DNA from: Qipengyuania gaetbuli | GTDB lineage: Bacteria > Pseudomonadota > Alphaproteobacteria > Sphingomonadales > Sphingomonadaceae | Assembly (NCBI RefSeq): GCF_020524765.1 | Contig: NZ_JAIVLR010000001.1 | Span: forward strand, 930,001 to 994,000 | Length of the DNA stretch: 64,000 nucleotides | Direction: 5' to 3' | In this document: piece by piece, positions 25,402 through 43,524 of the stretch | Position numbering within the stretch: the stretch's first letter is position 1 | Layout: the number at the start of each line of letters is the position of its first letter | Program-made: the position numbers and the translations under genes | The notes under the pieces: generated by a model | Seen by the model: the letters and a program-made list of their open reading frames with translations, nothing else | What the model was told of the DNA's origin: nothing | Database searches by the model: none

Positions 25402-25827
25402 GATCGGAGGGGGCTTGGGGCAGATTGAAACACGCCATTGCTCCAGAACTTGTGCCTTTTAGTTAACCCGTCAGCATGGCCTAAAACATCGGTCGCATGC
25501 CGCTTGCCGCTCAGAAAGCTGAGCCATACTCTTTCGAGCAATCTCGCGAAGTGTTAAGGATCCCACCTGTCTGAGCGATGTGCAGTGAAGCCATCGATTG
25601 TGAAGTCGTATCTTCATCAATCCTGACGGTACCATCAAGCTTGGCCAAAGGGACCCATTGGGACCCAAAGGAGCTAAACCCGCAAGCTCCAGAAGACTTC
25701 TGGACGTCCGCAGGGTATACCCTAAAGATACGTCACCTTGAGACACTATCGGTGTCTCATTAGCATTGACGTGAACATTCCGGACATTCAGAGCCAATGG
25801 TCCAGACGCTATTGGAACAGTTTCATC
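25402..25827. other. Intergenic region upstream of the resolvase with a palindrome
   Basis: About 425 bp without a convincing gene. A perfect inverted repeat, TGAGACAC-TATCG-GTGTCTCA (25739-25759), lies about 70 bp before the resolvase start and could be a resolution subsite or an operator. A reverse-strand open frame (25471-25995) runs through here but overlaps the resolvase start and looks spurious. Confidence 0.45.
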
Positions 25828-26373: not shown

Positions 26374-26518
26374 ACTCTCTCCAAAGAATAATCGGGCGGA
26401 TTAGAAGCCTGAAGTCGACTGTGCTGGCCGAATTCTGGCGAAAATGGCAAAGAGGCATAGTGGCGTTGAGCGCGCCCCACGGACCGTTAGATCGTTGGCT
26501 AAGCCGGGACTCTTTCGT

Positions 26519-27985
26519 CTAGCTCAGTCTTGGCTCGGGGCCTGCTGCCAGGCCCAGCGTCTCCCGAAAGTACCGGGTAAACGCCCCCGTGAGGGCACTT
26601 TTGGCCAACCTAATATTCGGCTTGGCAACTATGAGGGCATCATGGACCGGTAGGAAACCGACCTTATGGTCGATCATCAATTCCTCCATGGCCAGCCGAA
26701 GGATCTCCGCCTCATGAAATTGGAGGTCTAGCGGGCCTATGCCCAAGCTTGGGAGGCCAGCCAAGAATGGATATCGACCAAGGCCTGCCCTCCTAGCTAG
26801 ATTATGCTTCGAGCCACCCGCTGCTGGGTCGGAGGTACCCAGAGCGATGAGTAGCCATGCCTTCATCCTTTCCCGATCGACCTTAGGGCCGGAGAAGCCA
26901 TGGGGCGTTCCAGAGTCTCTGACCGACCCCGCTCCCGGTGCAAGGTCGTAGACCTCATATGGGTCGCGCGAATTATCGAAAGGCATCCCCAATAGACCAT
27001 GAAGGATCGTGAGGTGCGAAGCGCTGATATCGACCTCCTCAACCTCCTGCTCATCGATGCGAATAACGCGTTTCCGAGTCTCGGCGGATCCCTCCATCCG
27101 CTCATAGGGGTCGGCCTCCGGCATAGAATAGTATCGTCCGTGCCACTGCCAATTGAAATCGGGGCGGTCGCCATTGTTGAAGACCCGTCGCAACCCAGAA
27201 AATGCGATGCCTTCGATCCGCCCAGGCGCCCTTAAGTGCTCATTGAGACGCTGAAGGTCAGCCACGATCTTTGCCGCCATTGGCTCAGTCAGATTGACCG
27301 CAAGACGCCTAGGTTCCGAACTCTTCGACTTCTTCTCCCCCCTCTTCTCCAGGAGGTCAGTCGCTCCTGGGGCGGCCGGACGACCCATATCGAAATGCTT
27401 GTGCCACTCCGTAAGAGCGATGCCTTGGCTCTCCGCTAGTTCCACGAGCTTCGCAGTGGGTCGAAAACTAGTTCGAGCCGCTTTCGTCTGCTTCCCTCCA
27501 AACAGTGAAAATGTGCGGATATACCCGGGCAGCTCTTCAATCAATTCGGCTTCACCAAGAGCATCCCTCATCGTCTTGAAGGCTTGCGGCCCACCTGGGC
27601 GTCCCGATTGGGCGTTAGTGTTGGTTGCTAACTTGCACCAAACATCAACGGATGCGGCCGCGAGCAAATCTGCCAGGAAAGCGCCTGTAATCGCGCGGTA
27701 CTTAAGGATCGAAGAGGGCCTGAGTTGCCCCTGCATTGCCTTGTAGGGTGAGATCACCTCATCCACGATCAGACCAACCAACCGGGTACCCTCCGGTGAC
27801 CTGGGGCTACCCGTGAGCATCATGGAGCGGCTGTAGGTTCGAGCATCACGCCTTTGTGCCTCTTCCATAATGGGAAGCGGTGTCGATAAGTGCATTGAGA
27901 TAGGGGCTTTCAGATCATAAGGTTTCGTGGGTCGGCGCAAGTCGTCATGAAGGGTAGGCGGAAGTTCCCACCACCCCTGCCACAA
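26519..27985 (-). CDS. Uncharacterised protein with polymerase-A-like palm motifs
   Basis: Protein of 488 residues (TTG start at 27985; an ATG at 27895 is the alternative). A central LRRVFNN segment (265-271) and GRYYS (283-287) match what I recall of a widespread uncharacterised alphaproteobacterial family. Three elements then follow in the order of family-A polymerases: D319-I-S-x2-H (motif A-like), R371-x3-K375 (motif B-like) and PVHDALIV with H448-D449 (motif C-like). A polymerase or primase-like activity is inference. There is no exonuclease or helicase domain. It is divergent from brxA with a 205-bp shared gap. Confidence 0.65.
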   Translation of the reverse strand: MWQGWWELPPTLHDDLRRPTKPYDLKAPISMHLSTPLPIMEEAQRRDARTYSRSMMLTGSPRSPEGTRLVGLIVDEVISPYKAMQGQLRPSSILKYRAITGAFLADLLAAASVDVWCKLATNTNAQSGRPGGPQAFKTMRDALGEAELIEELPGYIRTFSLFGGKQTKAARTSFRPTAKLVELAESQGIALTEWHKHFDMGRPAAPGATDLLEKRGEKKSKSSEPRRLAVNLTEPMAAKIVADLQRLNEHLRAPGRIEGIAFSGLRRVFNNGDRPDFNWQWHGRYYSMPEADPYERMEGSAETRKRVIRIDEQEVEEVDISASHLTILHGLLGMPFDNSRDPYEVYDLAPGAGSVRDSGTPHGFSGPKVDRERMKAWLLIALGTSDPAAGGSKHNLARRAGLGRYPFLAGLPSLGIGPLDLQFHEAEILRLAMEELMIDHKVGFLPVHDALIVAKPNIRLAKSALTGAFTRYFRETLGLAAGPEPRLS

Positions 27986-28190
27986 GCAGGCCTCAAAAGG
28001 CCTTAAGGTAACCTATAGCCATAGTGGTATGAAAACTCTCTCGATTGAACCCGCTAGACCGTCGCTCTGCGAATGGGCAGAGACTTTCGTCCCCGCATGA
28101 GCTGTGGGTGTCGTTTTGAAACCATTCACTAGCCTGACGGGTCTCAGAAAATTTCCCTACCGATACATTCAAGCCTGATAAACACGACCG
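27986..28190. promoter_or_regulatory. Divergent promoter region of BREX with a small inverted repeat
   Basis: The 205-bp gap between the polymerase-like gene and brxA must carry promoters in both directions. An inverted repeat CTCTGC-GAATGG-GCAGAG lies at 28065-28082, about 110 bp before brxA. There is no T run after it, so it is more likely an operator or leader hairpin than a terminator. I see no confident -35/-10 pair. Confidence 0.35.
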
Positions 28191-28784
28191 ATGTCCGCAA
28201 AGAATCCTTATCGCCTATCATTCTCGACCGGAGGCCTATTTGCACCAGCCTCAGTAGAGCTTGCTTCCATTTATGAGGATCTTGGCGATTGGGAAGCGGT
28301 GAAGAAAATTGCTGGAGAGAGAGGTCTGACTGGCTTTCAGGCAAAATCATCTTCCACCAGAACAATCCGAGAGCTGGTAACTCGCCTCTCGTTCCTCAAC
28401 GACGACGAGCGATCGCTCCTCCTGTCCGGGAGTAGTGTTGAGCAGAGCGCCCTACTGTGGCTGGCACTTTGCCGGACCTATCCTTTTATCCGAGAATTTT
28501 CGATCGAAGTCCTGGGCGAGCGCCTTGCTCATTTCCGAACCGACCTCAACTACGAACACTTCGACGCCTACGTGGCATCAAAATCTCAGTGGAACGAGGA
28601 TCTGGATGACCTCTCCGAAACTACCTTGAAAAAGCTTCGGCAGATCTTGTTTCGCTACATGCGCGAAGCAGGGGTTCTAGTCGAAGGTGACCGGATTGCC
28701 GCCTATCTTCTTCCAAGCTCGGTTCGCGCCCTTTTGGAGCAGCAGGACCCAACCGAGTTGCGCTTTTTCCCTGGCGTGACCTAA
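28191..28784 (+). CDS. brxA: BREX protein BrxA (DUF1819)
   Basis: Protein of 197 residues, the usual BrxA length, opening with KNPYRLSFSTGGLF and followed in order by brxB, brxC, pglX, pglZ and brxL. BrxA is a small DNA-binding BREX protein; its precise role in phage exclusion is not settled. First gene of the operon, 9 bp before brxB. No strong ribosome site is visible before the ATG at 28191. Confidence 0.9.
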   Translation: MSAKNPYRLSFSTGGLFAPASVELASIYEDLGDWEAVKKIAGERGLTGFQAKSSSTRTIRELVTRLSFLNDDERSLLLSGSSVEQSALLWLALCRTYPFIREFSIEVLGERLAHFRTDLNYEHFDAYVASKSQWNEDLDDLSETTLKKLRQILFRYMREAGVLVEGDRIAAYLLPSSVRALLEQQDPTELRFFPGVT

Positions 28785-28793
28785 GGAGCATAA

Positions 28794-29405
28794 ATGGCAT
28801 TGCGCACAGACACATACGAACCACGTGAGCTCCTAGATCACCTTTGCAAAGTGATATCTTCCCAGCGCTTTTTGAATATGGAGAGCCTCAACAACGAAGT
28901 GCCTTTCTTCATATGTCCTTATGACATCGCTCGTCAGAAGGACATCGACGAGGTCTACGTGAGGCTCCTGAAGCATCTCGAAGGCTCAAACTTAAGTGTT
29001 TTGGAGATAAACCTCTATAATACCTGCATCGATATTCTTCGCGCTAGGAACATTTGGAGCCAAGTACTCGATGCAGAGGAGCTGAGTGCAAAATCTGAAT
29101 TATTGGAGCTACTACAAGGGGTCCTCGACCCTCAAGATCATCTAGTGCCCGCCATCTCCGAACGGATCACTTCCACCAATCCGGATGTGATGTTCATTAC
29201 AGGTGTCGGGGAAGTATTCCCGTTTATTCGCTCGCATAACGTGCTCAACAATCTTCAGAGCGTCGCAAAGGGGTTTCCTACAGTCATGTTCTTTCCGGGT
29301 CGCTACACGCACGAAATTGCCAGCGGCGCATCCCTTGACCTCTTTGGTCGCCTTCATGACGACAAATACTATCGCGCATTCAACATCCTGCACGTCGAGG
29401 CATGA
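28794..29405 (+). CDS. brxB: BREX protein BrxB (DUF1788)
   Basis: Protein of 203 residues with a DUF1788-like C-terminus (TGVGEVFPFIRSHNVLNNLQ, then PTVMFFPGRYTHE). It has an AAGGAG ribosome site. BrxB is needed for type I BREX defence and modification, with no known enzymatic activity; it may link other components. It sits between brxA and brxC with a 6-bp gap to the latter. Confidence 0.92.
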   Translation: MALRTDTYEPRELLDHLCKVISSQRFLNMESLNNEVPFFICPYDIARQKDIDEVYVRLLKHLEGSNLSVLEINLYNTCIDILRARNIWSQVLDAEELSAKSELLELLQGVLDPQDHLVPAISERITSTNPDVMFITGVGEVFPFIRSHNVLNNLQSVAKGFPTVMFFPGRYTHEIASGASLDLFGRLHDDKYYRAFNILHVEA

Positions 29406-29411
29406 CGCATT

Positions 29412-32400
29412 ATGGCACTAAAACTAAAAGAAATTTTTGATAAGCCTGTCGATCGCAGAATTGAGGGGGTCATCAAGGCGGATGATGACGCCAGCTTACT
29501 TAATGAGCTTGAGGAATATGTCATCACCGATGAGGTGGAGAAGCACCTCAATATCTTCCTCGACGCCTATTTGAACGCAGAAAACTCAAATGGCGTATGG
29601 ATTTCCGGATTCTTTGGTTCGGGCAAATCGCATCTACTGAAGATGCTTGCGTTGCTCCTCGAAAATCACGAGGTCGATGGGGTAAACGCCCTCGCGGTGT
29701 TCAGCGAGAAGGTAAAGCAGAACCAATTTCTTAAGGCTGATATTGAACGCGCCGCATCGATCCCTTCGATGAGCATTCTTTTCAATATCGACCAGAAGGC
29801 CGATGTGATCTCAAAGGCACAGGTCGATGCTCTCCTCGCTGTATTTCAGAAGGTCTTTGACGAAGCCTGCGGCTATTATGGGAAGCAGGGGCACGTTGCT
29901 CAGTTTGAGCGCCACCTCGATGAGAACGGAAACTTTGCGGCCTTCAAGACCGCATACGAGGAAATTGCCCTAAAGCCGTGGGAGCGAGGTCGCGAACAAC
30001 ACATTCTAGAAGAAAAATCGATTGCGGCTGCTTACGCGAAAGCGACTGGGGGAGATCCGTCCGAAGCTGCTGGCGTACTCAAAAAGTATCGCGAGACCTA
30101 TAAGGTATCAATCGAGGATTTCGCCGACCAGATTAACAAGTTCGTGGAGCGCCAGCCCAAGGGGTTTCGGCTTAATTTCTTCGTTGATGAGGTAGGGCAA
30201 TACATCGCCGATAACACCAAGCTGATGACCAATCTGCAAACTATTGCAGAGTCATTGGCGACGCGCTGCAAGGGCAAAGCGTGGATTATTGTTACCGCAC
30301 AGCAGGAGATGGGCGGCATTGTCGGAGACATGTCGAAGCAACAGGATTTGGATTACTCAAAGATCCAGGCCCGCTTTGCCACGCGCATGCCATTGACCAG
30401 TGCGAATGTAGCCGAGGTAATCCAAAAACGATTGCTAAAAAAAGCCGAGGAGGCCGAGGGGGCTGTCGGCGAGCTCTATGATGCCCATGAAAACGACATG
30501 CGGACATTGTTCGGCTTCTCGACGGGCGTGCAATTTAAGACCTATCGAGATCGCGATCACTTCATCGCAAGTTACCCATTCCTCCCGTACCAATATGATC
30601 TTTTCCAGGAAGCCATAAGAGAGCTATCAAACCATAACGCCTTTGAGGGACGGCACGCGTCAGTTGGCGAACGCTCTATGTTGGGCGTCTTCCAGCAGGT
30701 CGTGAGGCAAATCAAAGATTACGAACTTGGTGCCGTTGCGCCGTTCGATTTGATGTTTGAGGGAATTCGTTCTGCGCTGAAAGCGGGCGTTCAATCTTCG
30801 ATTTTGCTGGCAGAGCGAAACATCGAGAATGAACTTGCACAACGCATCCTCAAAGCCCTCTTCCTTGTTAAGTATGTTAAGCAGTTCAAACCAACACTCG
30901 AGAACATTGCCGTGCTCGTCCGAGAGCGTTTCGACGGCGATGCGGTCAAGTTGACCCGTGACGTAGAGGCGGCGCTCAACCTACTCGAACAACAAACCTA
31001 CATTCAGCGTAACGGTTCGGTCTACGAGTTCCTCACGGACGAAGAGAAGGATGTCGAGGAAGAGATCAAGAACACCGAGGTCGACAACTCTGAGATCTCC
31101 GCCGCACTCGACCAGATGCTTTTCGGGATCGGTCTGAGGACTAACAAGATCCACCACGAGATCGCTGGCGCAGACTACCCTTACGCAAAACATGTAGACG
31201 ATCAGTTGTCGGGCCGGGACTACGAGCTGAAGATCAATATGATCACCCCCTTTCATCCGGAAGGCGGCCAGGTTGAGCGCTTTCGAATGCAGACCATGAA
31301 CCGGAACGAGCTCTGCGTTATCTTGCCCGAGGAGGAACGCTTCCTAAGAGACCTGATCCAGCTAAAGAAAACTGAAAAGTACGTCCGACAGGCCTCTACG
31401 ACTAACCTACAGCCAACTCTCCAGCGGATCATTAGCGAGAGGAGGGAGCAGATTGAACAACGCGGTCGCGCGTTAGAGCTAAGCGCCAAGAGGCTTCTTG
31501 CCGACGCGAGGCTGTTCGTGAGGGGTCAGGAACTCGATATCCCCGGCGAAGACGGAGCCGGTAGGATTGTCCGTGGTTTCGGCAGTCTAATCGATAAGGT
31601 CTACACTAGCCTCGGCCAGCTTCGCGGGATCTCCTATACCGAGAGCCATATTTCTGAGGCTCTGTCGAAAGCGGATGATGGCCTTTTCGGTGCTGACGGA
31701 TCTCCGTTGCCCGAGCCTGAGCAAAGCGTTCTCAATCACCTGCAGATGAATAAGAGTCGTGCCCTTCGATCCACAGTGAAATCTGTGACGGAAGAATTCG
31801 AGAAGGCTCCCTACGGCTGGCCTCGAATGGCTATCCTCGCTCAGCTTGCCGCTCTCTACGCAAGGGGGCGCATCGAAGCCAAAAAGGACGGGAGCAGCCT
31901 CTCCTCGAGCGAATTCGGCAAGGCTCTCCGGAACACGCACGAATTCTCGAACATCGTTCTCGAGCCGCAGGTCGAATTCACCCAAGGGCAGGTCACGGCA
32001 CTAAAAACTTTCTACAAGGAGTTCTTCGATACATTGCCCCGAGCTGCCGAGGCAAAGGCATTGGCAGAAGAAACGCTTGCTGACCTCAAAAGGGAAGCGG
32101 ACGAGCTCAGGACACTTGCGCAGAGCTCCAGCCGCTATCCATTCTCGAGCAAGTTGGAGCCGGTTGCCCAACAGTTGTCCGAATTGGCGAGCTTGGGAGT
32201 GAACGGGCTTTTCGCCGAACTCGCCACGAGGCAGGACAAAGTCTTGGACGCCAAGGAGGACGTCTCGGGGCCAATCAAGCAGTTCCTCAAAGGAGACCAA
32301 GGAAAGATCTGGGATCAAGGACACGACTTCCTGCAAAAGCAGGGGACGAACATTGCCTATCTTCCAGGTGTTTCGACCGAGCCAATCCAGTCAATTTTGG

Positions 32401-32924
32401 ACGATCCCGAATGTTATCGCGGGGACAAGATGCGTCGCCTCCGAGGCGAGATCGATGCACTCAAAGCAAAGGTCGATGAAGCGCTCGATGCCGCACGGCA
32501 ATCCGCGCGAGCAGACCTCGATGCTTTGAAAACATATCTGACAACGGGTGAAGGATACGCGGCCGCTGCAACAGAGATCGACATCGCGTTTACCAGCGCT
32601 GAGGCAGGCCTACGCGATGCCGACACCATCCCCTTGGTCGAGCGTACCGTGGATCTGTTCAAGCGTAACGAGTACCCTGCCCTGCTCGCAAAGGCAGAAG
32701 GTACCGAAGACAGGGTCAAACAGTCTGCAGCGGACGGCTTTGACAACACCGGTGCAGAGGGGAGTGGGCAATCGGGCGCGAAGCCATTGACCCCGATTTC
32801 TTCGCTGAGGCCCGCGCACTCTAAACCCGTCCTGTCATCAGAAGAGGACGTCGAACAATACCTGCAGGAGCTGCGTGAAAAGCTTCTTGCGGAAATCCAA
32901 TCTGGCAAGCGGATCTCGCTCTAA
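29412..32924 (+). CDS. brxC: BREX P-loop ATPase BrxC
   Basis: Protein of 1170 residues, standard for BrxC. Walker A GFFGSGKS is at 66-73; a Walker-B-like hydrophobic strand with acidic residues (LNFFVDEVGQYI, about 250-261) follows. The C-terminal half is helical with long coiled-coil-like stretches (about 880-960 and 1010-1060). BrxC is an AAA-like ATPase of the core BREX complex and is required for methylation and defence. Its stop overlaps the pglX start by 1 bp. Confidence 0.95.
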   Translation: MALKLKEIFDKPVDRRIEGVIKADDDASLLNELEEYVITDEVEKHLNIFLDAYLNAENSNGVWISGFFGSGKSHLLKMLALLLENHEVDGVNALAVFSEKVKQNQFLKADIERAASIPSMSILFNIDQKADVISKAQVDALLAVFQKVFDEACGYYGKQGHVAQFERHLDENGNFAAFKTAYEEIALKPWERGREQHILEEKSIAAAYAKATGGDPSEAAGVLKKYRETYKVSIEDFADQINKFVERQPKGFRLNFFVDEVGQYIADNTKLMTNLQTIAESLATRCKGKAWIIVTAQQEMGGIVGDMSKQQDLDYSKIQARFATRMPLTSANVAEVIQKRLLKKAEEAEGAVGELYDAHENDMRTLFGFSTGVQFKTYRDRDHFIASYPFLPYQYDLFQEAIRELSNHNAFEGRHASVGERSMLGVFQQVVRQIKDYELGAVAPFDLMFEGIRSALKAGVQSSILLAERNIENELAQRILKALFLVKYVKQFKPTLENIAVLVRERFDGDAVKLTRDVEAALNLLEQQTYIQRNGSVYEFLTDEEKDVEEEIKNTEVDNSEISAALDQMLFGIGLRTNKIHHEIAGADYPYAKHVDDQLSGRDYELKINMITPFHPEGGQVERFRMQTMNRNELCVILPEEERFLRDLIQLKKTEKYVRQASTTNLQPTLQRIISERREQIEQRGRALELSAKRLLADARLFVRGQELDIPGEDGAGRIVRGFGSLIDKVYTSLGQLRGISYTESHISEALSKADDGLFGADGSPLPEPEQSVLNHLQMNKSRALRSTVKSVTEEFEKAPYGWPRMAILAQLAALYARGRIEAKKDGSSLSSSEFGKALRNTHEFSNIVLEPQVEFTQGQVTALKTFYKEFFDTLPRAAEAKALAEETLADLKREADELRTLAQSSSRYPFSSKLEPVAQQLSELASLGVNGLFAELATRQDKVLDAKEDVSGPIKQFLKGDQGKIWDQGHDFLQKQGTNIAYLPGVSTEPIQSILDDPECYRGDKMRRLRGEIDALKAKVDEALDAARQSARADLDALKTYLTTGEGYAAAATEIDIAFTSAEAGLRDADTIPLVERTVDLFKRNEYPALLAKAEGTEDRVKQSAADGFDNTGAEGSGQSGAKPLTPISSLRPAHSKPVLSSEEDVEQYLQELREKLLAEIQSGKRISL

Positions 32925-35900
32925 TGGACACCTCTATCCTGAAGAAGTTCGCACCGCAGGCTCGCAAGCTGCTGATCGATCAAGTGTCGGTGAAGCTGCG
33001 GTCAGTTTTGGCATCTGACAGTGCGGCCCGCCGCGAGCAGCCGAAAGCTGTAACTGAGCTCGAAAAGCAGCTTGCTGCGTTGGGCGAAGAAGAGCTGATT
33101 GAGAAGGTTGCCTACACTTGGTTCAACCGGCTGAGCGCCTTGCGTTTCATGGATGCAAACGGTCTCAACACTATCCGGGCGGTCACACCGGCCGAGGGCC
33201 AATCGCAGCCGGAGATCCTGGCGGAAGCCATGGCCGAGCATATCGACCCGGCCATTGTGCCAAAGGATGTGGCAGACCGCGTTCGGGCACTGCTGAGTGG
33301 CGCCGCCACCAGCTCAGACCCGCAGGCGGAAGCCTATCAGCTGCTGCTCGTGGCTGTTTGCAACGCCTGGCACAGCACCATGCCGTTCATGTTCGAACGG
33401 ATTGCGGACTATACCGAGCTGCTGATGCCGACAGGACTGCTTGCCCCGGACTCCATCATGGTCCGGCTGCGCGAGGTGATGAACGACGAGGCTTGCCAGG
33501 ATGTCGAGATTATTGGCTGGCTCTACCAGTTCTACATCTCCGAGAAGAAGGACGAGGTCTTCGCGGGGCTGAAGAAAAATAAGAAGATTACGGCGGAGAA
33601 CATCCCTGCTGCCACTCAGCTGTTCACGCCGCACTGGATCGTGCGGTACCTGGTGGAGAATTCGCTTGGGCGCCTGTGGATGCTCAACCACCCGAATTCC
33701 AGGCTGGTTGAGCGGATGGACTACTACATTGCGCCAGAGGAGCCAGAAACCGACTTCCTCAGGACATCCTCGCCTGAAGAAATTCGCATCTGTGATCCAG
33801 CCTGCGGCTCAGGCCACATGCTCACCTACGCCTTCGATCTACTTTACGCGATCTATGAAGAACAGGGCTATGAGCCCAGCGAGATCCCGGCCAAGATCAT
33901 TACGCACAACCTGACCGGCATCGAGATCGATGATCGCGCAGGAGCGCTGGCGGCCTTTGCGCTTGCTATGAAGACTGCAGCCAGACTTGGGCGACGCCGA
34001 TTCATGCGAATGGAGGCAAAGCCTGACATTGTGGTGATGCAGGACGTGGCGTTCACGCCTGCTGAGATGCAAGATGTGGCGGCTGTGGTGGGCGAAGACC
34101 TGTTTACGGACGAACTCCAAGAAACGCTGGGACAATTCACAGACGCGAAAAACTTCGGCTCGCTGATCGTGCCAAAACTTCGCGACCCGGCGGAGGCACT
34201 ACGCGTAGTAGAAGCTCGGGATTTTGCTGATGACTTGTTGCTGAGAGAACTTCAAAAACGAGTTTTAGCTGTTCTGCTAATGTCCGAGGCGCTTCGGTCG
34301 ACGTATCACGTAGTGGTGGCCAACCCCCCATACATGGGCGCTCAGAACTTTGATGCGGTATTGAAAACATTCGCTAGCGAAAATTTCACAGAGAGTAGAG
34401 CCGATCTTTTCTCAATGTTTATGGAGCGCGGCCTAAATCTCTTAAAAGCAAAATGTTATGCCTCGTTCGTCACTATGCAGACATGGATGTTTATATCATC
34501 ATTTGAAGATCTTCGCTATAAAGTGACGACAGATTATCAAATCAGAGGCTTGATCCAGATTGGATTTAATAGTTTTCCGGAAATGAATTCGAAGGTCGCT
34601 CAGGCCGCAGCATTCATAATTCAGAGAAGTGCCGAGCGAGTCAAGGGGGCTTTCTTCGACCTCAACGACGCCCCACAATCCGCAAACAAAAGGGTCGTGC
34701 TCGAAGAAAAGATCGAAGCTAGGGATTGGTTTGCAGTTGAGCCATCTGGCTTCTCTAAAATGCCCGAAAACCCCATTGCCTACTGGGCCACCGAAAAGGA
34801 GATTAAGGCGTTTGAGAATGGCTATGCCCTCAACACGGAAGCAAACCCTAGAGTTGGCCTTTCGACATCAGATACGGCGAGATTTGTTCGACCATGGCAT
34901 GAGCTGAATTTCGCAACTATTGGATTGGGATTTTCTAATAAGGAAGACGCTTCTGCGAGTTCCAAAAAATGGTTTCCGCTTAACAAAGGTGGTGAATTTC
35001 GTCGCTGGTATGGCAATAATGACTTTGTTCTAAACTATATGAACGATGGAGCTGAGTTAAAACATTGGCTCATCAACAATCCAAACGACCCAACAACTAC
35101 CAGCTGGGCTCGATATATACGGAGTCCGGAATTTTACTTCCGAGAGTCTGCAACTTGGTCGAAAATCAGCAGCTCAAAATTCTCTGTTCGATATTCTCCA
35201 GAAGGATTCATTTTTTCTGACGCTAGCAATGGGATATTTCCTGAGCCCGGGCGCCTCAATTTTTATTTGGGCCTTCTTAATTCTAGCGTCTCTCACAGTC
35301 TTCTGAAGATCCTCTCTCCTACTTTAAACTTCAAGTCGGGAGATATTGGCCGCATTCCCGTACTTTCGGTTCCAAAATTTTCTGACAATGTAGTTCTAAA
35401 CTTAGTCAAGCTCGCCAAATTTGATTGGGACGAATCCGAAACGTCGTGGGATTTCGAGAGACACCCCTTGCTGTCGGAAGAGAATGGAAGTCGCTCTTTG
35501 GAGATGACTTATTCTGACCTTCGTGCTGATTGGGGGTCAAGGACAAATGAAGTGAAAATGCTGGAGGAAGAGAACAATCGCATTTTCATAGACGCCTACG
35601 GCCTTCAAGACGAGCTGAACCCGGATGTGCCGCTTGCGGAAATCACCCTCAATTGCAATCCAACTAGTCGCTATAGCCCAAAACTCAACAGAGAGGAGCA
35701 TGAGAGGCGGCTTCTTTCGGACACCATGGCTGAGTTCCTTAGCTATAGCGTGGGCTGCATGTTCGGCCGCTACAGCCTGGAAGAGCGAGGCCTGATCCTC
35801 GCTAATCACGGTGAGACACTCCAGGATTATCTCGCCCGCGTGCCCTCACCATCATTTATGCCGGACGAGGACAATGTGATCCCGATCCTCGATCGCGATT

Positions 35901-36442
35901 GGTTCGCGGACGACATCACAGGACGCTTCCGCACATTCCTACGCACGACTTTCGGTGAGGATCATTTCACCGAAAACCTCCGATTCATCGAGAGCGCGCT
36001 CGGCAAGGATATCCGGAAATACTTCCTCCGAGATTTCTACAACGATCACGTCAAACGCTACAAGAAGCACCCGATCTACTGGCTGTTCTCCAGCCCCAAA
36101 GGTAGCTTCAATGCGCTGATCTACATGCACCGCTATCGCCCTGACACGATCAGCGTGGTGCTGAATGACTATCTGCGCGAATATATCCGGAAGCTCGAAG
36201 CCCATCGCGAACAGCAAGAGCGGATCCAGGCGGACCCTTCATCAGCAGCGTCCGCGAAGACAAAGGCGGCCAGAGAGATCGAGGAAGCCAGCAAGGTACT
36301 GGCTGAGCTCGAGGCATATGAGAAGGATGTACTCTATCCACTGGCGACACAGCGCGTGGGGATCGATCTCGATGATGGCGTGAAAGCGAACTATCCGAAG
36401 TTCGGCGCTGCGCTGAAGCGGATCCCGGGGCTCTCGGAATAG
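32924..36442 (+). CDS. pglX: BREX site-specific adenine DNA methyltransferase PglX (BrxX)
   Basis: Protein of 1172 residues, intact. SAM-binding motif I DPACGSGH is near 291-298 and the catalytic NPPY at 467-470, typical of N6-adenine methyltransferases. PglX marks host DNA and gives BREX its sequence specificity; the region after NPPY contains the target-recognition part. Composition changes within the gene: roughly 60-70% G+C up to about 34.2 kb, often below 45% between about 34.2 and 35.5 kb, then above 50% again. This suggests recombination of the recognition region. Confidence 0.96.
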   Translation: MDTSILKKFAPQARKLLIDQVSVKLRSVLASDSAARREQPKAVTELEKQLAALGEEELIEKVAYTWFNRLSALRFMDANGLNTIRAVTPAEGQSQPEILAEAMAEHIDPAIVPKDVADRVRALLSGAATSSDPQAEAYQLLLVAVCNAWHSTMPFMFERIADYTELLMPTGLLAPDSIMVRLREVMNDEACQDVEIIGWLYQFYISEKKDEVFAGLKKNKKITAENIPAATQLFTPHWIVRYLVENSLGRLWMLNHPNSRLVERMDYYIAPEEPETDFLRTSSPEEIRICDPACGSGHMLTYAFDLLYAIYEEQGYEPSEIPAKIITHNLTGIEIDDRAGALAAFALAMKTAARLGRRRFMRMEAKPDIVVMQDVAFTPAEMQDVAAVVGEDLFTDELQETLGQFTDAKNFGSLIVPKLRDPAEALRVVEARDFADDLLLRELQKRVLAVLLMSEALRSTYHVVVANPPYMGAQNFDAVLKTFASENFTESRADLFSMFMERGLNLLKAKCYASFVTMQTWMFISSFEDLRYKVTTDYQIRGLIQIGFNSFPEMNSKVAQAAAFIIQRSAERVKGAFFDLNDAPQSANKRVVLEEKIEARDWFAVEPSGFSKMPENPIAYWATEKEIKAFENGYALNTEANPRVGLSTSDTARFVRPWHELNFATIGLGFSNKEDASASSKKWFPLNKGGEFRRWYGNNDFVLNYMNDGAELKHWLINNPNDPTTTSWARYIRSPEFYFRESATWSKISSSKFSVRYSPEGFIFSDASNGIFPEPGRLNFYLGLLNSSVSHSLLKILSPTLNFKSGDIGRIPVLSVPKFSDNVVLNLVKLAKFDWDESETSWDFERHPLLSEENGSRSLEMTYSDLRADWGSRTNEVKMLEEENNRIFIDAYGLQDELNPDVPLAEITLNCNPTSRYSPKLNREEHERRLLSDTMAEFLSYSVGCMFGRYSLEERGLILANHGETLQDYLARVPSPSFMPDEDNVIPILDRDWFADDITGRFRTFLRTTFGEDHFTENLRFIESALGKDIRKYFLRDFYNDHVKRYKKHPIYWLFSSPKGSFNALIYMHRYRPDTISVVLNDYLREYIRKLEAHREQQERIQADPSSAASAKTKAAREIEEASKVLAELEAYEKDVLYPLATQRVGIDLDDGVKANYPKFGAALKRIPGLSE

Positions 36443-36446
36443 CCCG

Positions 36447-38957
36447 ATGAAAGACAAGCTCGAGTATGCGTTGAAGGCGAAATTTTCAGGCGGTGAGCGC
36501 CAGATCGTCTTCTGGTACGACACCGCCGAGGAGTTCGCCGACGATTTCGCCGCCCTCGATTTACCGGGCGTCGAAAAGGTGGAGGTGCAAAACAACGAAT
36601 TTGCTTTGAAGCACCGCATGCTTCGGGAGCAGCCGGAGCAGCATTTCCTGGTCTACGCTCGTGGCTCCCAACCGGAAGACATCGACAACTGGCTGTTGGA
36701 CGTTCTCTTGTCCCACTCTCAGTTCCGAACCGACAAGGTCCAGATGTGGCTGGACGAGCTCGGATTGCCCGGACCTTTTGCTGGTCTTCTGGAGGAACAC
36801 CAAGCATTCTTCGGAGCGAATGCTCGTTACGAAGAACTTAAACGCCTGATCGAGCCAAGCGACAGTCGCACACGCGTCCGAATGAAGATGGTTGCCGTAT
36901 GCCTTGGCGTCCACCCGGATATCGACGCTATCGTTGAAGCATTGCTTGGTGGATTGGCCAAGGGTGAGGAGAACTTGGCTCGGACGATGGGGCTGCTCGA
37001 ACGTTGCCGCCTCGCTGAATTCCTGTGGGAGCAGTTCGCCGAACGGTTTGGCTACCGCGCGGAAACTCCGAGCATCGGTGATTTCGCTATCGCTCTATTT
37101 AGAGCCTCGTACGCAGCGGATCTCGGCGCAGAAGCTGAACTCACATCCGATGCACACATCTGCTTCAAACGCTGGAAAAATGGTCGCACTACTGCAGCCG
37201 ATTTCGAAATTCTATCCGCCGAATTTGCCGAGGCTCTGAACGTCGAAGAGGATCTCGAACGGCGAGATTTTCGCGACCTTATGCGGCTTGATCAGTACGA
37301 GGCAATCGACCGCAAAATCATTCGGGCGTTAGTCCACGAGGTCGCCGAACAGACGGTTTCTCATGCAGAGGTCGAGCGCTGGGTCCGCGAGCGAAAAGGT
37401 CTCCATTGGTTCGCCACGTTTGAACCAATTTATGAAGCCATCCTGGCTGCAGCTCGGTTCCTTTACGAGCTTGCCCACACGTCACTGGAGGTGAAGGGCT
37501 TTGATCAAGGGATAGACCTTTACGCAACGCGCTGGTTCCGATTGGACCAATTGTACCGAGAATTCATCAAGAATGCCGACCAGTCGAAACAGGCCACGAG
37601 CTTGCTTTCAGAGCTCACCGAACAGGTCGAAAACCGCTATTCTAATCAATTCCTCTTGACCTTGAATGACAACTGGCAGGCTCAGGTTGACGCAGCCGAT
37701 ACTTGGAATTCCGCAGCCGTTACGATGCAGACGGATTTCTACAGGTCGAAGGTCCGTCCCGTTCGCCATAATGGGCAAAAAGTGTGCGTAATCATTTCTG
37801 ATGCTCTACGCTACGAAGTCGGCGAAGAGCTTCAGCGAAGGATACGCTCGTTAGACCGCTTTACGGCGGAGCTCGAACCAGGCCTCAGCGCATTGCCAAG
37901 CTACACCCAATTGGGAATGGCAGCTCTTCTCCCCCACCGCGAGCTTAAGATAGAAGACAAGGCGACAGTTCTTGTCGACGGTCAATCGGCTTCAGGCCTC
38001 CAGAACCGTGAGAAAATCCTGACTGCCGGTGCGAGCGGAGAACGGTGCAAGGCTCTCAAGTTTGAAGAGCTAATGGAGCTGGTGAAAGATGACGCTCGAG
38101 AACTGATCCGCGAGCATGACGTCATCTATGTCTACCACGATCGGATCGATGCGATGGGAGACAAGCCGGGGACCGAACGCCAAGTTTTCGAAGCCGTCGA
38201 AGACACCTTCAAGGATCTCGAAAGCGCGGTCCGCAAACTCATGTCAGCAAATGCAAGTAAGATCCTGATCACAGCTGACCACGGGTTTCTCTTCCAGGCA
38301 CGCAAGATTGACGAAAGTGATTACGCTTCCGCTGGGGTTACCGGCAAAGACGTTGTCTTTGTTAACCGCAGGTATGCCCTGGGGCGAGGGCTTGAACCTA
38401 GCGCCAGCGTAAAGACCTTCACGTCGGCCGCTGCTGGACTTTCCGGTGACCTTGAGGTGCAAATTCCGAAGTCGATCAATCGCCTCAGAAAAAGCGGATC
38501 GGGCGCCAGGTTCGTACACGGCGGCGCGAGCCTCCAAGAAATTGTCATCCCGATCCTGACCGTTAGTAAGTCTCGCGCAAGTGATGTGGAGTTGGTCGAG
38601 GTTGAGATTTTGGCTGGCGACAGCCGCCTCATCACGACCAGCCAACTCGGCGTGAAACTGTATCAGAGCGAACCCGTCGACGATAAAATCCAATCCCGGG
38701 AACTCAAAATCGGGATCTACTCGCTAGATGGGGACTTGCTTTCCGACGAGCAAACGCTGGTTTTTGACAGCACATCGATCGACCCAAGAGATCGAGAGCG
38801 CTCGATCCGCCTACTTCTCACCCGGAAAGCTGATGATCACAACAACCAAGAAGTGATCTTAAAGCTCTCTGAGCGTCACAAGAACACGAGCGCCTTCAAG
38901 GACTACCGAACCGTTCGGTATACGCTGCGCCGCCGACAAACCGATTTCGACTTCTAG
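36447..38957 (+). CDS. pglZ: BREX alkaline-phosphatase-fold protein PglZ
   Basis: Protein of 836 residues, the type I PglZ length. The alkaline-phosphatase-superfamily core is in the middle: CVIISDALRYEVG (metal Asp, about 449-461) and LITADHGF (about 607-614). PglZ is required for BREX modification and exclusion and acts with PglX; nuclease activity of metal-dependent type has been reported for the family. It starts 4 bp after the pglX stop. Confidence 0.94.
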   Translation: MKDKLEYALKAKFSGGERQIVFWYDTAEEFADDFAALDLPGVEKVEVQNNEFALKHRMLREQPEQHFLVYARGSQPEDIDNWLLDVLLSHSQFRTDKVQMWLDELGLPGPFAGLLEEHQAFFGANARYEELKRLIEPSDSRTRVRMKMVAVCLGVHPDIDAIVEALLGGLAKGEENLARTMGLLERCRLAEFLWEQFAERFGYRAETPSIGDFAIALFRASYAADLGAEAELTSDAHICFKRWKNGRTTAADFEILSAEFAEALNVEEDLERRDFRDLMRLDQYEAIDRKIIRALVHEVAEQTVSHAEVERWVRERKGLHWFATFEPIYEAILAAARFLYELAHTSLEVKGFDQGIDLYATRWFRLDQLYREFIKNADQSKQATSLLSELTEQVENRYSNQFLLTLNDNWQAQVDAADTWNSAAVTMQTDFYRSKVRPVRHNGQKVCVIISDALRYEVGEELQRRIRSLDRFTAELEPGLSALPSYTQLGMAALLPHRELKIEDKATVLVDGQSASGLQNREKILTAGASGERCKALKFEELMELVKDDARELIREHDVIYVYHDRIDAMGDKPGTERQVFEAVEDTFKDLESAVRKLMSANASKILITADHGFLFQARKIDESDYASAGVTGKDVVFVNRRYALGRGLEPSASVKTFTSAAAGLSGDLEVQIPKSINRLRKSGSGARFVHGGASLQEIVIPILTVSKSRASDVELVEVEILAGDSRLITTSQLGVKLYQSEPVDDKIQSRELKIGIYSLDGDLLSDEQTLVFDSTSIDPRDRERSIRLLLTRKADDHNNQEVILKLSERHKNTSAFKDYRTVRYTLRRRQTDFDF

Positions 38958-38966
38958 GGGACTGCA

Positions 38967-41045
38967 ATGACGCCGCTCGACAAGAAAATTAACGAGCATT
39001 TTGCCGGGTTGGTCGTGCGCAAGGATCTCGTGAAGGCCGTCAAAGGCAACGCGATCGTACCTTCGTATGTCCTTGAGTATCTACTGGGACAGTACTGCGC
39101 GACAAGCGATGAGGCCTCAATCCAATCGGGCATCGAAACCGTCAAAGAGATCCTCGCAAAGCACTACGTCCACCGCAACGAAGCAGGCCTGGTGCGCTCA
39201 AACATCAGGGAAAAAGGGCGCTACAAAGTCATCGACAAAGTAAGCGTGGCCCTGAACGATAAGAAGGACGTTTACGAGGCAACGTTTGCCAACCTCGGGA
39301 TCAAAGAGGTTCTAGTCGACACGTCGACAGTCAAAGCTCACCCCAAGATGCTGGTGAGCGGGGTTTGGTGCATTGCAGACGTCGAGTACGAGTATTCGGA
39401 AGACAAGAGCGTCTCCCCTTGGGTCCTAGGGTCCCTGAAGCCCATTCAGCTATCCAACTTTGATTTTGATGCGTATCTCGCGGCTCGCCAGCAGTTCACA
39501 TCGGACGAGTGGATCGATCTGCTCATTCAAAGCATTGGGTTTGATCCGGAGATGCTCGGACGGCGGAGCAAGTTCATCCAGCTCGTGCGCTTGATCCCGT
39601 TCGTGGAACGGAACTACAATCTCATCGAGCTTGGCCCCAAGGGCACCGGTAAGTCACATATCTTCTCCGAGTTTTCGCCGCACGGTATTCTGATCTCGGG
39701 CGGGGAAGTTACCGTTCCAAAACTCTTTGTGAACAACGCGACGGGCAAAATCGGGCTGGTTGGATATTGGGACGTTGTAGCTTTCGACGAATTCGCTGGT
39801 CGCCAAAAAAGGGTCGATAAGGCCTTGGTCGACATCATGAAGAACTACATGGCCAACAAGAGCTTTTCACGCGGAGTGGAAACGCTTGGTGCCGAGGCAT
39901 CGATGGTATTCGTTGGCAATACCAAACACACCGTACCCTACATGCTGAAGCACACCGACCTCTTCGATGAACTTCCTGAAAAGTATTACGATTCAGCGTT
40001 TATCGATCGACTTCACGCGTATATTCCCGGCTGGGAGGTGGACGTAATCCGAGGAGAAATGTTCTCCGGTGGATACGGATTTGTGGTCGACTACATAGCT
40101 GAAATCCTTCGCCACTTACGTGCCCAGGATTTTTCCGACCAATATAAGGCGCTCTTCACGCTCTCTTCCGACATCTCGACCCGCGATCGCGATGCCGTTC
40201 ACAAGACCTTTTCAGGATTGATGAAGATCCTGTTCCCGGCTGGCGGAGCTACCGATGAGGAACTCGAGGAAGTACTTCGTTTTGCGATGGAGTGCCGCAA
40301 GCGCGTCAAAGATCAGCTCATGCGTATCGACGCGACCTACCCCAAGGTCGATTTCAGAATAACAAAGTCTGATGGCACTAAGCTCAACGTCCGGACGCTG
40401 GAAGAGGAAGAGTATCCAAACTTCTACTACCGTACCGCTGAAGGTGACCAAGAGGGCCAATCTGGCGAAAGCGGCAACGGATCGAAGGAAGAGGCCTCCG
40501 AGCCGGGTGATAGCTCGGCAGACTCATCTCAGCCGCACGAGAAGCCAGCAAGCGATAGGCCAAAGGAAGGTCATAGAGAGGTTCAGGAGAACCAAAAAGG
40601 CATAACCTTTGCCAACCTGTTCGGCCAGCACTTGATGGGCGCTACCGAGGTAACCGTCCATGACCCTTACATCAGAATGTTCCATCAATTGCGCAACTTT
40701 TCCGAATTTCTCGAACTGCTGATTGGACAGAAGAAACCCGAAGATGAAATCTCTGTCCGCCTGCGTACGGGCAAAGACGAAATGGCGCCGGAGCGTCAGG
40801 AGGAGAACCTGACGAAGATGGCGGACTATGTCCGTGGCCATGGTATCCACCTCGAGTGGGAGTTTGATGACCTCCTCCATGACCGAAGTATCGAGACGGA
40901 TACCGGGTGGAAAATTATCCTGGGTCGTGGCCTCGACATTTTCCAGCGCTATGACAGCCGCGACGCATTCAATCCTGCCAACCGCATGCAGGAGACGCGA
41001 GGGTGCAAAGGTTTTGGCATCACCTTTGTGCGTCAGGAAGTTTAG
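38967..41045 (+). CDS. brxL: BREX Lon-like AAA+ protein BrxL with MIT_C-like tail
   Basis: Protein of 692 residues. Walker A LGPKGTGKSH is near 221-230 and a Walker-B-like VVAFDEFAG near 270-278. BrxL is a ring-forming AAA+ protein related to Lon/MCM that acts in phage exclusion and is dispensable for methylation. A low-complexity acidic linker (about 490-530) precedes a C-terminal domain (about 540-690) with GATEVTVHDPYIRMF and LLHDRS/GWKIILGRGLDIF, which resembles the PLD-like MIT_C domain of eukaryotic MITD1. Last gene of the operon. Confidence 0.92.
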   Translation: MTPLDKKINEHFAGLVVRKDLVKAVKGNAIVPSYVLEYLLGQYCATSDEASIQSGIETVKEILAKHYVHRNEAGLVRSNIREKGRYKVIDKVSVALNDKKDVYEATFANLGIKEVLVDTSTVKAHPKMLVSGVWCIADVEYEYSEDKSVSPWVLGSLKPIQLSNFDFDAYLAARQQFTSDEWIDLLIQSIGFDPEMLGRRSKFIQLVRLIPFVERNYNLIELGPKGTGKSHIFSEFSPHGILISGGEVTVPKLFVNNATGKIGLVGYWDVVAFDEFAGRQKRVDKALVDIMKNYMANKSFSRGVETLGAEASMVFVGNTKHTVPYMLKHTDLFDELPEKYYDSAFIDRLHAYIPGWEVDVIRGEMFSGGYGFVVDYIAEILRHLRAQDFSDQYKALFTLSSDISTRDRDAVHKTFSGLMKILFPAGGATDEELEEVLRFAMECRKRVKDQLMRIDATYPKVDFRITKSDGTKLNVRTLEEEEYPNFYYRTAEGDQEGQSGESGNGSKEEASEPGDSSADSSQPHEKPASDRPKEGHREVQENQKGITFANLFGQHLMGATEVTVHDPYIRMFHQLRNFSEFLELLIGQKKPEDEISVRLRTGKDEMAPERQEENLTKMADYVRGHGIHLEWEFDDLLHDRSIETDTGWKIILGRGLDIFQRYDSRDAFNPANRMQETRGCKGFGITFVRQEV

Positions 41046-41078
41046 GGGAACAAGGCAACCTCGCGAAGGGAGGCCACG

Positions 41079-41756
41079 CTAGCGCTTAGAGCGGTACTGA
41101 GCAGCTCGCCTCACTTTGCGGTTTCTTCCTTTGGGCTTTTGAGCCCTCTTTGGCACACTCTTTTTACGGCGCTCATCCAGCGCCTTCATCATGCTAGTCA
41201 TGAACCACTTGTCGTACTTCCAGCCCCAAATTCTCTCGGGCGACATGTACTCGTCCAGAAATTCCAGAGACGTCCAAAATTTCTCATCCCACGGCTGGAT
41301 GTAAATCAAGCCTCCCCTTTCCGGGGTCCGAAGCACGTCGCTGAGTACCCTTAGGGGCTGATCAGTCTCGAGCAGCGTGAGATACAGAACGTTCCAACCA
41401 TCCTCGCGCTTACTTTTTTCATAGATCGCGGGGATCCATCCTGCGTCGCGCCAAGGGGTGTACTCCGGCGCAGGAGGTTTAACTCGGACGCGAGGGCCGG
41501 ATGGCGCAGGATTGTCGGTGCAAGGGTGCTTTGGCCAGGGCGGTCCTAGATCGTCGAAGAAAACCCGGCTTCCCTTGTCGTTCCAGTAGAAGAATACCTG
41601 ATCGCCGCAGACAGGACATTTCGCGTTGGGTACCGTCAGGCTGCTCATGCCAAAGCGGACTGGCTCCTTGGGCTTTGTAGGAGTACGCCGAGTGATGCCC
41701 CTACGTTTGAGGCACCACCCACAGCTGCAATCAGGATAATGATTGTGTCCGGGCAT
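41079..41756 (-). CDS. Hypothetical zinc-ribbon protein with basic tail
   Basis: Protein of 225 residues, function unknown. It opens MPGHNHYPDCSCGWC and has a further pair in AKCPVCGDQVFF (about 46-57), likely two metal-binding elements. The last 30 residues are strongly basic (RRKKSVPKRAQKPKGRNRK), suggesting nucleic-acid binding. I recall similar openings in other integrated elements, but no function. It converges on brxL (33 bp between stops) and lies next to the integrase gene on the same strand. Confidence 0.7.
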   Translation of the reverse strand: MPGHNHYPDCSCGWCLKRRGITRRTPTKPKEPVRFGMSSLTVPNAKCPVCGDQVFFYWNDKGSRVFFDDLGPPWPKHPCTDNPAPSGPRVRVKPPAPEYTPWRDAGWIPAIYEKSKREDGWNVLYLTLLETDQPLRVLSDVLRTPERGGLIYIQPWDEKFWTSLEFLDEYMSPERIWGWKYDKWFMTSMMKALDERRKKSVPKRAQKPKGRNRKVRRAAQYRSKR

Positions 41757-41809
41757 CCTACTCCGTGGGCTAACCGGAAAGAACTTCGTTAGAGTAAATC
41801 TGACGGCAT

Positions 41810-43429
41810 TTAGATGTCGACCTGAAACCGCGGTATCAGCTCAATCTCACGAGACAGGACATCGACAAAATCCCCAATGTGCTCATAGTCTCCATGAACG
41901 TCGGAAGCAGAGTGGCCTGTCAGCGCTCGGGTTACTGCGGGATCGAAGCGATAGCGAATAGCCTGACTGCTAAAGTAGTGCCGCCATGCGTGGTTCGGCA
42001 TAACTCCATCAATGCCAAGTGAGCGGACCCAGGTGGCGAGCTTCGAACCCAGCCTGTTCGCCTGGCGGTTGATAGCATTGTCGCTCCGCCGCTTCGTCGG
42101 GTCATAGAAGAGAGGCCCCTCGCTACGTCTCTCGACAAATTCGAGAAAGCCCTGGTCGAGCAGATGGCTGTGCAGCGGTACAAGGCGCGGCTCCTTGTTC
42201 TTTACCGTGCCAGCCTCTGGTGTGATCCGCATGACCCATATACCATCTTTTTCGAAGATGTCCTGCCTTCGCAGCTGGGTGATTTCGTTCACCCGGGCCC
42301 CAGAGTAGGCCATCAGCCACGGGCACCAGCGCTTGGCGTTTCGCAAATCCTCTTTTTCCCGAGAGCTTGATGTAACCAAAGATGCCCGAAGGATTGTGAG
42401 TGCTTCTTCGTTTGTAAATCCTTTGCTTCGCGTACGAGGCTTCTTGGGCAGCTTGACCTTAGCAACTTCAAGCATGGGATTGCTTGGGATAATCCCGTCA
42501 CCCTTGGCCCAAGCAAGAACAGCTGACACTGCGCCGAGGTAGCTCCCGTTGATCGTTTTTGCGGAAAGCCGCTTGCCTTTGTAGGTCTCATGGTCTCGCA
42601 AGTGATTTCGCCATGCGACCATGTCGTCGTGGCTGATTGCGAGAATGTTATCCGTATTGAGGAACGCGATGAGATGCTCGATATACCGGCGCCACTGTGC
42701 GACCGTTTTCATGCTCCTGCCTGGGACCGCAGCATAGCGTTCATAGAGATCCAAAATGCTCATCGCCTCACCAGCCGGACGAGGAGCCGAAGCTGGTCGT
42801 GCGGCTATCTTAGGTGTGCGCACGAGATCGCCCTGAAGCCTCTGGAGGGTGCCCTCGCTCGCCTCAATCTGGGCGTCGTGAACAGCAGAGCAAAGCTCGG
42901 CGAATGAGGCCGAGGTGCGATCGACGCGATAGCCCTCCGCTTCCGCTAGGCTCTCCGCCTCATCGCCCCACATCGCAATCATGCCCGTGATGTCGCCGAT
43001 CGCTCTCATCTCTTTCCAATCAGAGAGATCTTCGGATGTTACCTTTGTGAGATTTTCGGCGCGGAGCCTCTTTCGATCAGCAGGCTCAGGTAGCAGCCGG
43101 ATCTCGGCGTCGATCTCCAATCCCTCATTGGCGACATGAGAAGCCAGGTAGGCGATTGTTTCAGCATCGAGTGGGTCATAGGTACCGCTCGCTCGCTTTT
43201 GAGCCCTGAGGACAATCTCTTCCCACTGTCGGTCAATCTGATTGTACCTTTCGGTTGCCCCCGGTTCGCGCATGTCTTTGGCGCCGAGCGAAACTTTAAG
43301 TTCCGTGCGGCCACGACCGGTTGGGCTCCGGCTGGGAAGGTGGGGAATCAGATCTGTCGGGAAACGCCTGCGGTAGCTCAAGATACCGCTTTTCTTGTCA
43401 CGCTGCAGGTGCATCAACACCACTTCCAT
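41810..43429 (-). CDS. Tyrosine recombinase (island integrase)
   Basis: Protein of 539 residues from the ATG at 43429; a longer frame to 43504 runs through the putative arm repeats and is less likely. Catalytic residues are visible: Arg in AYSGARVNEI, H480-x2-R483 (HAWRHYF), H506 (TGHSA) and the nucleophile Tyr515 (DYEHIG). A SAM-like core-binding domain lies around 255-340 and a long N-terminal arm-binding part before it. Its position directly beside the 3' end of tRNA-Leu fits a site-specific integrase for that gene. Confidence 0.95.
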   Translation of the reverse strand: MEVVLMHLQRDKKSGILSYRRRFPTDLIPHLPSRSPTGRGRTELKVSLGAKDMREPGATERYNQIDRQWEEIVLRAQKRASGTYDPLDAETIAYLASHVANEGLEIDAEIRLLPEPADRKRLRAENLTKVTSEDLSDWKEMRAIGDITGMIAMWGDEAESLAEAEGYRVDRTSASFAELCSAVHDAQIEASEGTLQRLQGDLVRTPKIAARPASAPRPAGEAMSILDLYERYAAVPGRSMKTVAQWRRYIEHLIAFLNTDNILAISHDDMVAWRNHLRDHETYKGKRLSAKTINGSYLGAVSAVLAWAKGDGIIPSNPMLEVAKVKLPKKPRTRSKGFTNEEALTILRASLVTSSSREKEDLRNAKRWCPWLMAYSGARVNEITQLRRQDIFEKDGIWVMRITPEAGTVKNKEPRLVPLHSHLLDQGFLEFVERRSEGPLFYDPTKRRSDNAINRQANRLGSKLATWVRSLGIDGVMPNHAWRHYFSSQAIRYRFDPAVTRALTGHSASDVHGDYEHIGDFVDVLSREIELIPRFQVDI

Positions 43430-43439
43430 AGCTCTACCC

Positions 43440-43461: not shown

Positions 43462-43524
43462 CAGAGCGTTGAGAAATGGCTGATAAGCGGGAAATTATTC
43501 CCAATCAAACACTTAGAGTGTGTG

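Follow-up and report, generated by a model that had tools for sequence, protein, structure and literature searches.

An intact type 1 BREX operon with an HKD-type BrxL variant on an island at tRNA-Leu(CAG) in Qipengyuania gaetbuli

The BREX operon and its island

The 64,000-nucleotide stretch of Q. gaetbuli DNA analyzed here (the window) carries six plus-strand open reading frames between positions 28191 and 41045, arranged in the order brxA-brxB-brxC-pglX-pglZ-brxL (Table 1). Each of them has one terminal stop and no internal stop, and the intergenic distances, from brxA through brxL, are 9, 6, -1, 4, and 9 bp. The first-pass annotation had described all six core genes as intact, in canonical order and on one strand, and the open frames and the BREX profile matches bore this out; the tight spacing it reported also stood, but its range of 0-10 bp was replaced by a measured one of -1 to 9 bp. 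The search with BREX models that it had suggested recovered PADLOC, NCBIfam, and Pfam matches for the six genes. The best PADLOC profile of every protein was found at E <=1.1e-62, with nearly the full profile length covered. Above the NCBIfam cut-offs were BrxC (NF033441, 1157 bits), BREX-1 PglX (NF033452, 1402 bits), PglZ type A (TIGR02687, 840 bits), and BrxL (TIGR02688, 647 bits); BrxA and BrxB had no NCBIfam match, and both matched their Pfam families (BrxA, BrxB). In addition, solved BREX proteins in the PDB were matched by PglX (8c45, 8zek, and 9ewz; E 7.7e-220), PglZ (9nv3 and 9zn5; E 4.6e-105), and BrxC (9zdx; E 9.3e-142). The ATP (nucleotide), AdoMet, and PglZ site motifs were all found in the operon proteins, judged at the residues that we take to be the key ones. 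The six-gene set with a type A pglZ, the single strand, the canonical order, the unbroken frames, the spacing, and the BREX-1 PglX model are those of BREX type 1, and the assignment to this type is well outside what chance could give. It differs from that type in the C-terminus of BrxL and in the absence of a regulator gene adjoining brxA; apart from the BrxL variant, which is a published one, the operon is ordinary type 1.

Table 1. Features of the island and of the BREX operon, with positions in the window.
Feature	Position	Strand	Evidence or remark
Whole island, 20415 bases (20.4 kb)	23130..43544		G+C 0.538; empty site in L122
Left att repeat copy, 20 bases (one shorter than right copy)	23130..23149	+	
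Serine resolvase/invertase (PF00239)	25738..26373	+	True start perhaps downstream
Divergent family-A DNA polymerase-like protein	26519..27985	-	Start codon uncertain; palm motifs A, B, C kept
brxA	28191..28784	+	PADLOC 1.4e-65; Pfam BrxA
brxB	28794..29405	+	PADLOC 1.1e-62; Pfam BrxB
brxC	29412..32924	+	PADLOC E 0; P-loop GFFGSGKS, aa 66
pglX (brxX), N6-adenine methyltransferase	32924..36442	+	PADLOC E 0; DPACGSG aa 291, NPPY aa 467
pglZ type A	36447..38957	+	PADLOC 2.1e-298; SDALR aa 451, TADHG aa 609
brxL (BrxL-family N-terminal and AAA+ parts)	38967..41045	+	PADLOC E 0; P-loop GPKGTGKS aa 223
MIT_C / PLD-like domain of BrxL, aa 545-688	40599..41030	+	HDRSIETD at aa 638-645
225-aa cysteine-containing ORF, convergent with brxL	41079..41756	-	Relatives near BREX in L076 and plasmid L218
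Tyrosine integrase, beside tRNA-Leu(CAG)	41810..43504	-	
Right att repeat copy, 21 bases	43524..43544		tRNA-Leu 3' end plus one base
tRNA-Leu (CAG), insertion site	43525..43611	-	

All six BREX proteins were also matched on plasmids pSS05631d of Sinorhizobium (L218) and pTomMM15c of Sphingobium (L219), in an order identical to that of the window, with BrxL matching at 70% over nearly the whole protein and the other five at 46-58%. Upstream of brxA these plasmids have a gene that is not seen at this place in the window, annotated as a WYL-domain protein and lying just upstream in pSS05631d, and as a transcriptional regulator in pTomMM15c; in the latter, brxC and pglX are also separated by two extra genes, which is not so in the window. 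Here, the gene immediately upstream of brxA is the polymerase-like one, on the opposite strand. Expression of the operon in the window is uncertain because the WYL-domain gene of pSS05631d has no counterpart in this position. A decayed or silent copy was weighed. The missing regulator would fit such a copy, as would the observation that the only BrxL found in 60 genomes of the genus was the window's own; however, the lack of internal stops in any gene, the intact motifs, and the preserved spacing argue against it, and we regard it as very improbable.

The operon lies on an island inserted at tRNA-Leu(CAG), with the tyrosine integrase beside the tRNA and the repeat GTGGTG(C)CCAGAAGAGGACTC at both ends. 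Its G+C content is 0.538 versus 0.65 at either side of the window. Among 20 tRNA-Leu sites compared, only L122, from the relative G430, had both flanks together; these are 96% and 99% identical to those of the window and join at one repeat copy, which makes it an empty site. In the next closest genome (G408, L123), a different integrase adjoins the tRNA, and genes for type I restriction HsdM, HsdS, and HsdR were found within 18 kb. The other 18 sites were uninformative on the insertion because the left flank was not beside the tRNA. As in a tRNA-integrated island, the integrase adjoins a tRNA, the end of this tRNA is repeated at the flanks, and a relative has the site empty; the tRNA-Leu island proposed at first pass was confirmed; nevertheless, its span had been drawn too small, and the resolvase and polymerase-like genes overlooked. 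BREX was most likely acquired horizontally. Collectively, we assign a probability of about 0.93 to the reading that the stretch holds an intact type 1 BREX with a published BrxL variant, on an island at tRNA-Leu(CAG).

The C-terminal domain of BrxL

The C-terminus of BrxL had been passed over at first, and it is MIT_C/PLD-like rather than Lon-like. The alignment with the solved Acinetobacter BrxL (8emc, E 1.1e-145) was confined to query aa 4-456, and the Lon-related BrxL model TIGR02653 scored 603 versus a cut-off of 628, covering aa 4-466 only. A Lon-like C-terminus of the 8emc type was discarded, since this homology ends at aa 456 and aa 545-688 correspond instead to Pfam MIT_C (E 4.2e-39), where the motif HxRxxxxD is found. 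When the PDB was searched by sequence, the only convincing match of the domain was MITD1, which we take to be the human protein, with E 2e-22 for the single sequence and 6e-26 for a seven-row profile; the sole other match of this profile up to E 1 was the 77-residue chain Peak6, at 0.32. An AlphaFold2 model of BrxL aa 440-692, built from 60 sequences, had a mean pLDDT of 79.2 and a pTM of 0.62, with ten-residue means of 86-98 for model residues 91-210 and 63-79 for residues 211-240. The top five PDB folds for this model were MITD1 chains (E 2.0e-16 to 5.5e-15), with a TM-score of 0.55-0.56 over the query and, when normalized to the MITD1 chain, of 0.88-0.90 for three isolated-domain chains and 0.60-0.61 for two longer ones. 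Mouse Zucchini/PLD6 (4.4e-4) and PLD2 (8.3e-4) came after them. The C-terminal domain of MITD1 (2ymb, 4a5z) shares with BrxL the fold and the blocks DPYIR...Q...N, H.R, and GW...RGLD; it is preceded by an MIT domain, whereas the AAA+ part precedes it in BrxL, and it retains the H and R of the motif, with N in place of D.

A BrxL of this kind has been described before. According to the available text of PMC12839542, 1030 of 2913 type 1 BrxL proteins carry an HKD-type domain with K replaced by R, the motif being published as HRD. The window protein has the same PLD-superfamily C-terminal domain with H-x-R, likewise replacing the Lon-like domain in a type 1 BREX. The terms 'MIT domain' and 'MIT_C' are absent from the main text of that paper, in its available parts, and a literature search for MITD1 together with BREX gave only one match, unrelated by title and abstract. 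The variant is thus already known; as far as these searches reach, the MITD1 link and an uneven motif D are what is added here.

The distribution of the domain was surveyed in two ways. Among 398 genomes of the phylum, the BrxL ATPase was over the cut-off in 17 and MIT_C in seven, in all of which it shared an ORF with the BrxL ATPase. The idea that MIT_C commonly stands alone in this phylum was therefore rejected for matches over the cut-off; in four further genomes it fell below the cut-off (E 2.8e-4 to 5.8e-4). A scan of genome contigs gave 220 relatives of the BrxL tail, the best 80 of which were examined; its patterns were drawn from BrxL tails, so it is uninformative on stand-alone MIT_C. 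Within the best 80 of 220, the tail-bearing ORF contained the BrxL P-loop in 74, and pglZ was present in 74 stretches. Of the six loci outside the P-loop count, BrxL was intact and in one frame in L083, split over frames in L066, L090, and L093, ended by the contig edge in L084, and reduced to aa 460-691 in L041. Five of the six stretches with no pglZ had the tail match less than 1.8 kb from the stretch start, and the sixth was L041. A search of phage records for the MIT_C tail gave no match. In the 81 aligned tails (the best 80 of 220 plus the window), H and R of the motif were found in 81/81 and D in 74/81, with N in four, E in one, S in one, and G in one of the remaining seven, and the lysine position of the HKD motif was occupied by arginine in every tail. 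The scan patterns partly built in the invariance of the ENQKG and DPY blocks; the HxR region was not among them. The window copy keeps the D.

What the domain does was considered under two readings. PMC12839542, in its available text, predicts and argues that the HKD-type domain is still active as an endonuclease of the HKD family and degrades phage DNA. The constancy of H and R and the presence of D in most tails agree with such activity, as does the fold match to mouse Zucchini/PLD6. The latter is a PLD-family member with nuclease activity. On the other hand, arginine stands for lysine throughout, and lysine-to-arginine is the usual way of inactivating mammalian PLD, a point for which our literature search found no support; moreover, D is lost in seven tails, and MITD1, the close solved relative, has N at this position. 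Since D is lost in these copies and MITD1 is the sole convincing PDB match by sequence and leads the fold matches, we regard catalysis as less certain than the paper does. Both the relationship to MITD1 and the variable D weaken the nuclease reading, and we give it a little under an even chance. The other reading is that the domain binds and does not cut, a pseudoenzyme that would hold DNA phosphates or, as in MITD1, membranes, and would position BrxL at the site of phage DNA entry or replication. The rank of MITD1 as the only convincing sequence match and the top fold match points to it, and the PLD fold of MITD1, in 2012 work ascribed to Hadders, reportedly binds membranes; nonetheless, the aspartate is retained in 74/81 tails, beyond the needs of pure binding. 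We hold this reading, too, to be slightly short of an even bet.

The carrier genes and their relatives

Between the left end of the island and brxA sit the resolvase and polymerase-like genes. The 488-aa polymerase-like protein had no Pfam, NCBIfam, or PADLOC match, and matched phrog_4756 at 1.2e-9. Its model, built from eight sequences, had a mean pLDDT of 79.9, and ranks 1-15 among the PDB folds were proteins that we take, partly from recall and partly by name, to be family-A DNA polymerases; these were weak matches, with a best E of 4.7e-3, none <1e-3, TM up to 0.30, and a large rmsd. Of the 27 sequences in the family, 26 reach the palm region, and E317, D319, K375, H448, and D449 were invariant in all of them; R371 was found in 24 of the 26 covering it. 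D319, K375, H448, and D449 presumably act as polymerase palm residues. As in family A, the palm has motifs A, B, and C and the two catalytic aspartates, and these motifs support the weak fold ranking, suggesting that the protein resembles family A.

The window genome has two PF00239 resolvase genes and two polymerase-like genes, which form two pairs with spacings of 146 and 138 bp, and the second pair adjoins an apparent type I restriction system, called with home-made profiles to which the genes of this system contributed. The polymerase-like gene was rejected as a BREX component, being present in none of the stretches around the best 80 of 220 BrxL loci. When seven genomes with this BrxL form were searched in full, it was found in one, on a contig that differs in length from the one bearing the BrxL (71,264 versus 66,835 bases). 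A viral origin found little in its favor: the single-protein search gave one weak match, and 0/67 candidate stretches were confirmed with the two-row alignment. Elsewhere, the protein was detected in two Klebsiella phages at 21-22% and in one plasmid at 26%.

Searches for the polymerase-like gene gave 1/289 genomes of the class with the single protein, this being the window genome; 13/249 genomes of the family with a two-row alignment; and 21/266 genomes of the order with eight rows, the window genome being counted in both. The family and order searches yielded 30 different genomes, 26 of which were examined, giving 27 loci with the two of the window genome; G730, G801, G824, and G929 were left out as weak or partial matches. 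A resolvase was found in the stretch in 22/27 loci, at <=2 kb in 17, with a profile built from five of the loci, which match by construction. A tyrosine integrase was likewise found in 22/27, with a profile from four of the loci and two integrases of L123, the source loci again matching by construction. The integrase was <=250 bp from a tRNA in 10/27 loci, and L163 is an eleventh case, as its integrase begins in the neighboring stretch L169, at a distance of 36 bp from tRNA-Leu(CAG). This tRNA is the target in the window, L162, L163, and L210. Restriction or defense-type genes were found in 12/27 loci (the window, L145, L161, L162, L163, L164, L166, L197, L198, L202, L207, and L208), a count that comes with no background rate and, for Hsd genes, from a profile built on L145, L161, L162, and L123, so that these match by construction. 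PADLOC was applied to ten chosen ORFs from six loci, and no family was assigned to four of these ORFs. BREX was found in one of the 27 loci, the window, which is also the one whose element ends are established. The pairing of the polymerase-like gene with a resolvase is well supported, and the data are suggestive of defense genes as cargo of polymerase-bearing elements.

Pipolins, as described in the available text of PMC7385651, are integrative elements that encode a family-B polymerase themselves. The island resembles them in having a tyrosine recombinase and a DNA polymerase-like gene of its own, and restriction-modification parts are frequent cargo in both kinds, but its polymerase-like gene resembles family A, with a serine resolvase alongside. 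Identity with pipolins was rejected: no piPolB was found in Pfam scans of 14 island ORFs, which list no polymerase, and family A ranks first, weakly, for the fold of the polymerase-like protein. A literature search for a family-A equivalent of pipolins gave no evident match among the matches listed, and the island family is possibly new. We tentatively propose, at somewhat less than even odds, that BREX is here the cargo of unnamed tRNA-targeting Sphingomonadales elements built around a divergent family-A polymerase along with a serine resolvase and a tyrosine integrase. These would be a PolA counterpart of pipolins, replicate themselves after excision, and carry interchangeable defense, which is BREX in this element and, in others, restriction of type I, type IIG, or the GmrSD type.

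Proposed mechanism and significance

What was observed directly is the gene set, the intact state of each gene, and the island; how the system would work is drawn step by step from published BREX work. PglX would methylate host DNA at an asymmetric site, and BREX methylation motifs are described in the available text of PMC11341690 as non-palindromic and of 6 bp. Unmethylated phage DNA would be sensed by the machinery of PglX, BrxB, BrxC, and PglZ, and BrxL rings would next assemble on DNA, halting phage replication. In the Acinetobacter protein, the C-terminal domain mediates the tail-to-tail dimerization of two rings (PMC10164562, available text). This ring-joining part is replaced by the PLD-like domain in the window BrxL. 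Single-motif domains of the PLD superfamily usually pair, forming one site. Because of this pairing, two BrxL rings may be expected to meet via the PLD-like domain, and the phosphate-binding sites at the interface would then nick or hold DNA; we give this step about even odds.

The locus provides one more chromosomal BREX that is intact and has a PLD-type BrxL, a protein whose structure and activity are published as predictions in the available literature. Given the relationship to MITD1 and the variable motif, experiments can decide between a nuclease and a binding role. Moreover, the island hints at a carrier that may shuttle defense systems from genome to genome and use a PolA-type enzyme of its own for replication. 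If this is true, a PolA-bearing carrier would broaden the known range of integrative elements that replicate themselves, which the available text of PMC7385651 describes as family-B based.

Genes flanking the BREX operon

The family-A polymerase-like gene and the serine resolvase were also found as a pair at other Sphingomonadales loci, and restriction genes were present at several of these. The source genome has a second copy of the polymerase-like gene. It adjoins the only PF00239 resolvase of this genome apart from that in the window, and a putative type I restriction system is also next to it.

Positions of the genes flanking the operon and of the second polymerase-like copy
Feature	Location	Strand	Remark
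Serine resolvase	window 25738-26373	+	adjoins polymerase-like gene
Family-A polymerase-like gene	window 26519-27985	-	divergent sequence; adjoins resolvase
Polymerase-like gene, second copy	G000:C1:213157-214542 (source genome, locus L145)
225-aa ORF	window 41079-41756	-	convergent with brxL; contains cysteines

A family match was sought for the 225-aa ORF, and none was found. Relatives of it were observed near BREX in Hyphomicrobium (L076) and on the Sinorhizobium plasmid pSS05631d (L218, 22601-23101).

BREX and MIT_C genes at other loci

On the Sphingobium plasmid pTomMM15c (L219, 7285-8957), brxC and pglX are separated by two extra genes annotated as hypothetical. A 222-aa ORF of Stutzerimonas stutzeri KOS6 (L041) corresponds to the MIT_C tail of BrxL without the AAA+ part, and at three loci (L066, L090, L093) brxL is broken into two or three frames, either because the gene has decayed or because the sequence contains errors. 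MIT_C matches under the cut-off (E 2.8e-4 to 5.8e-4) were given by four proteins (L026-L029), encoded in genomes of the source organism's class.

Use of the tRNA-Leu site

In the relative G408 (L123), the integrase adjoining the same tRNA-Leu differs from that of the window, and a type I restriction system lies within 18 kb of this tRNA gene; because of this, the site seems to be used by unlike defence-bearing islands.
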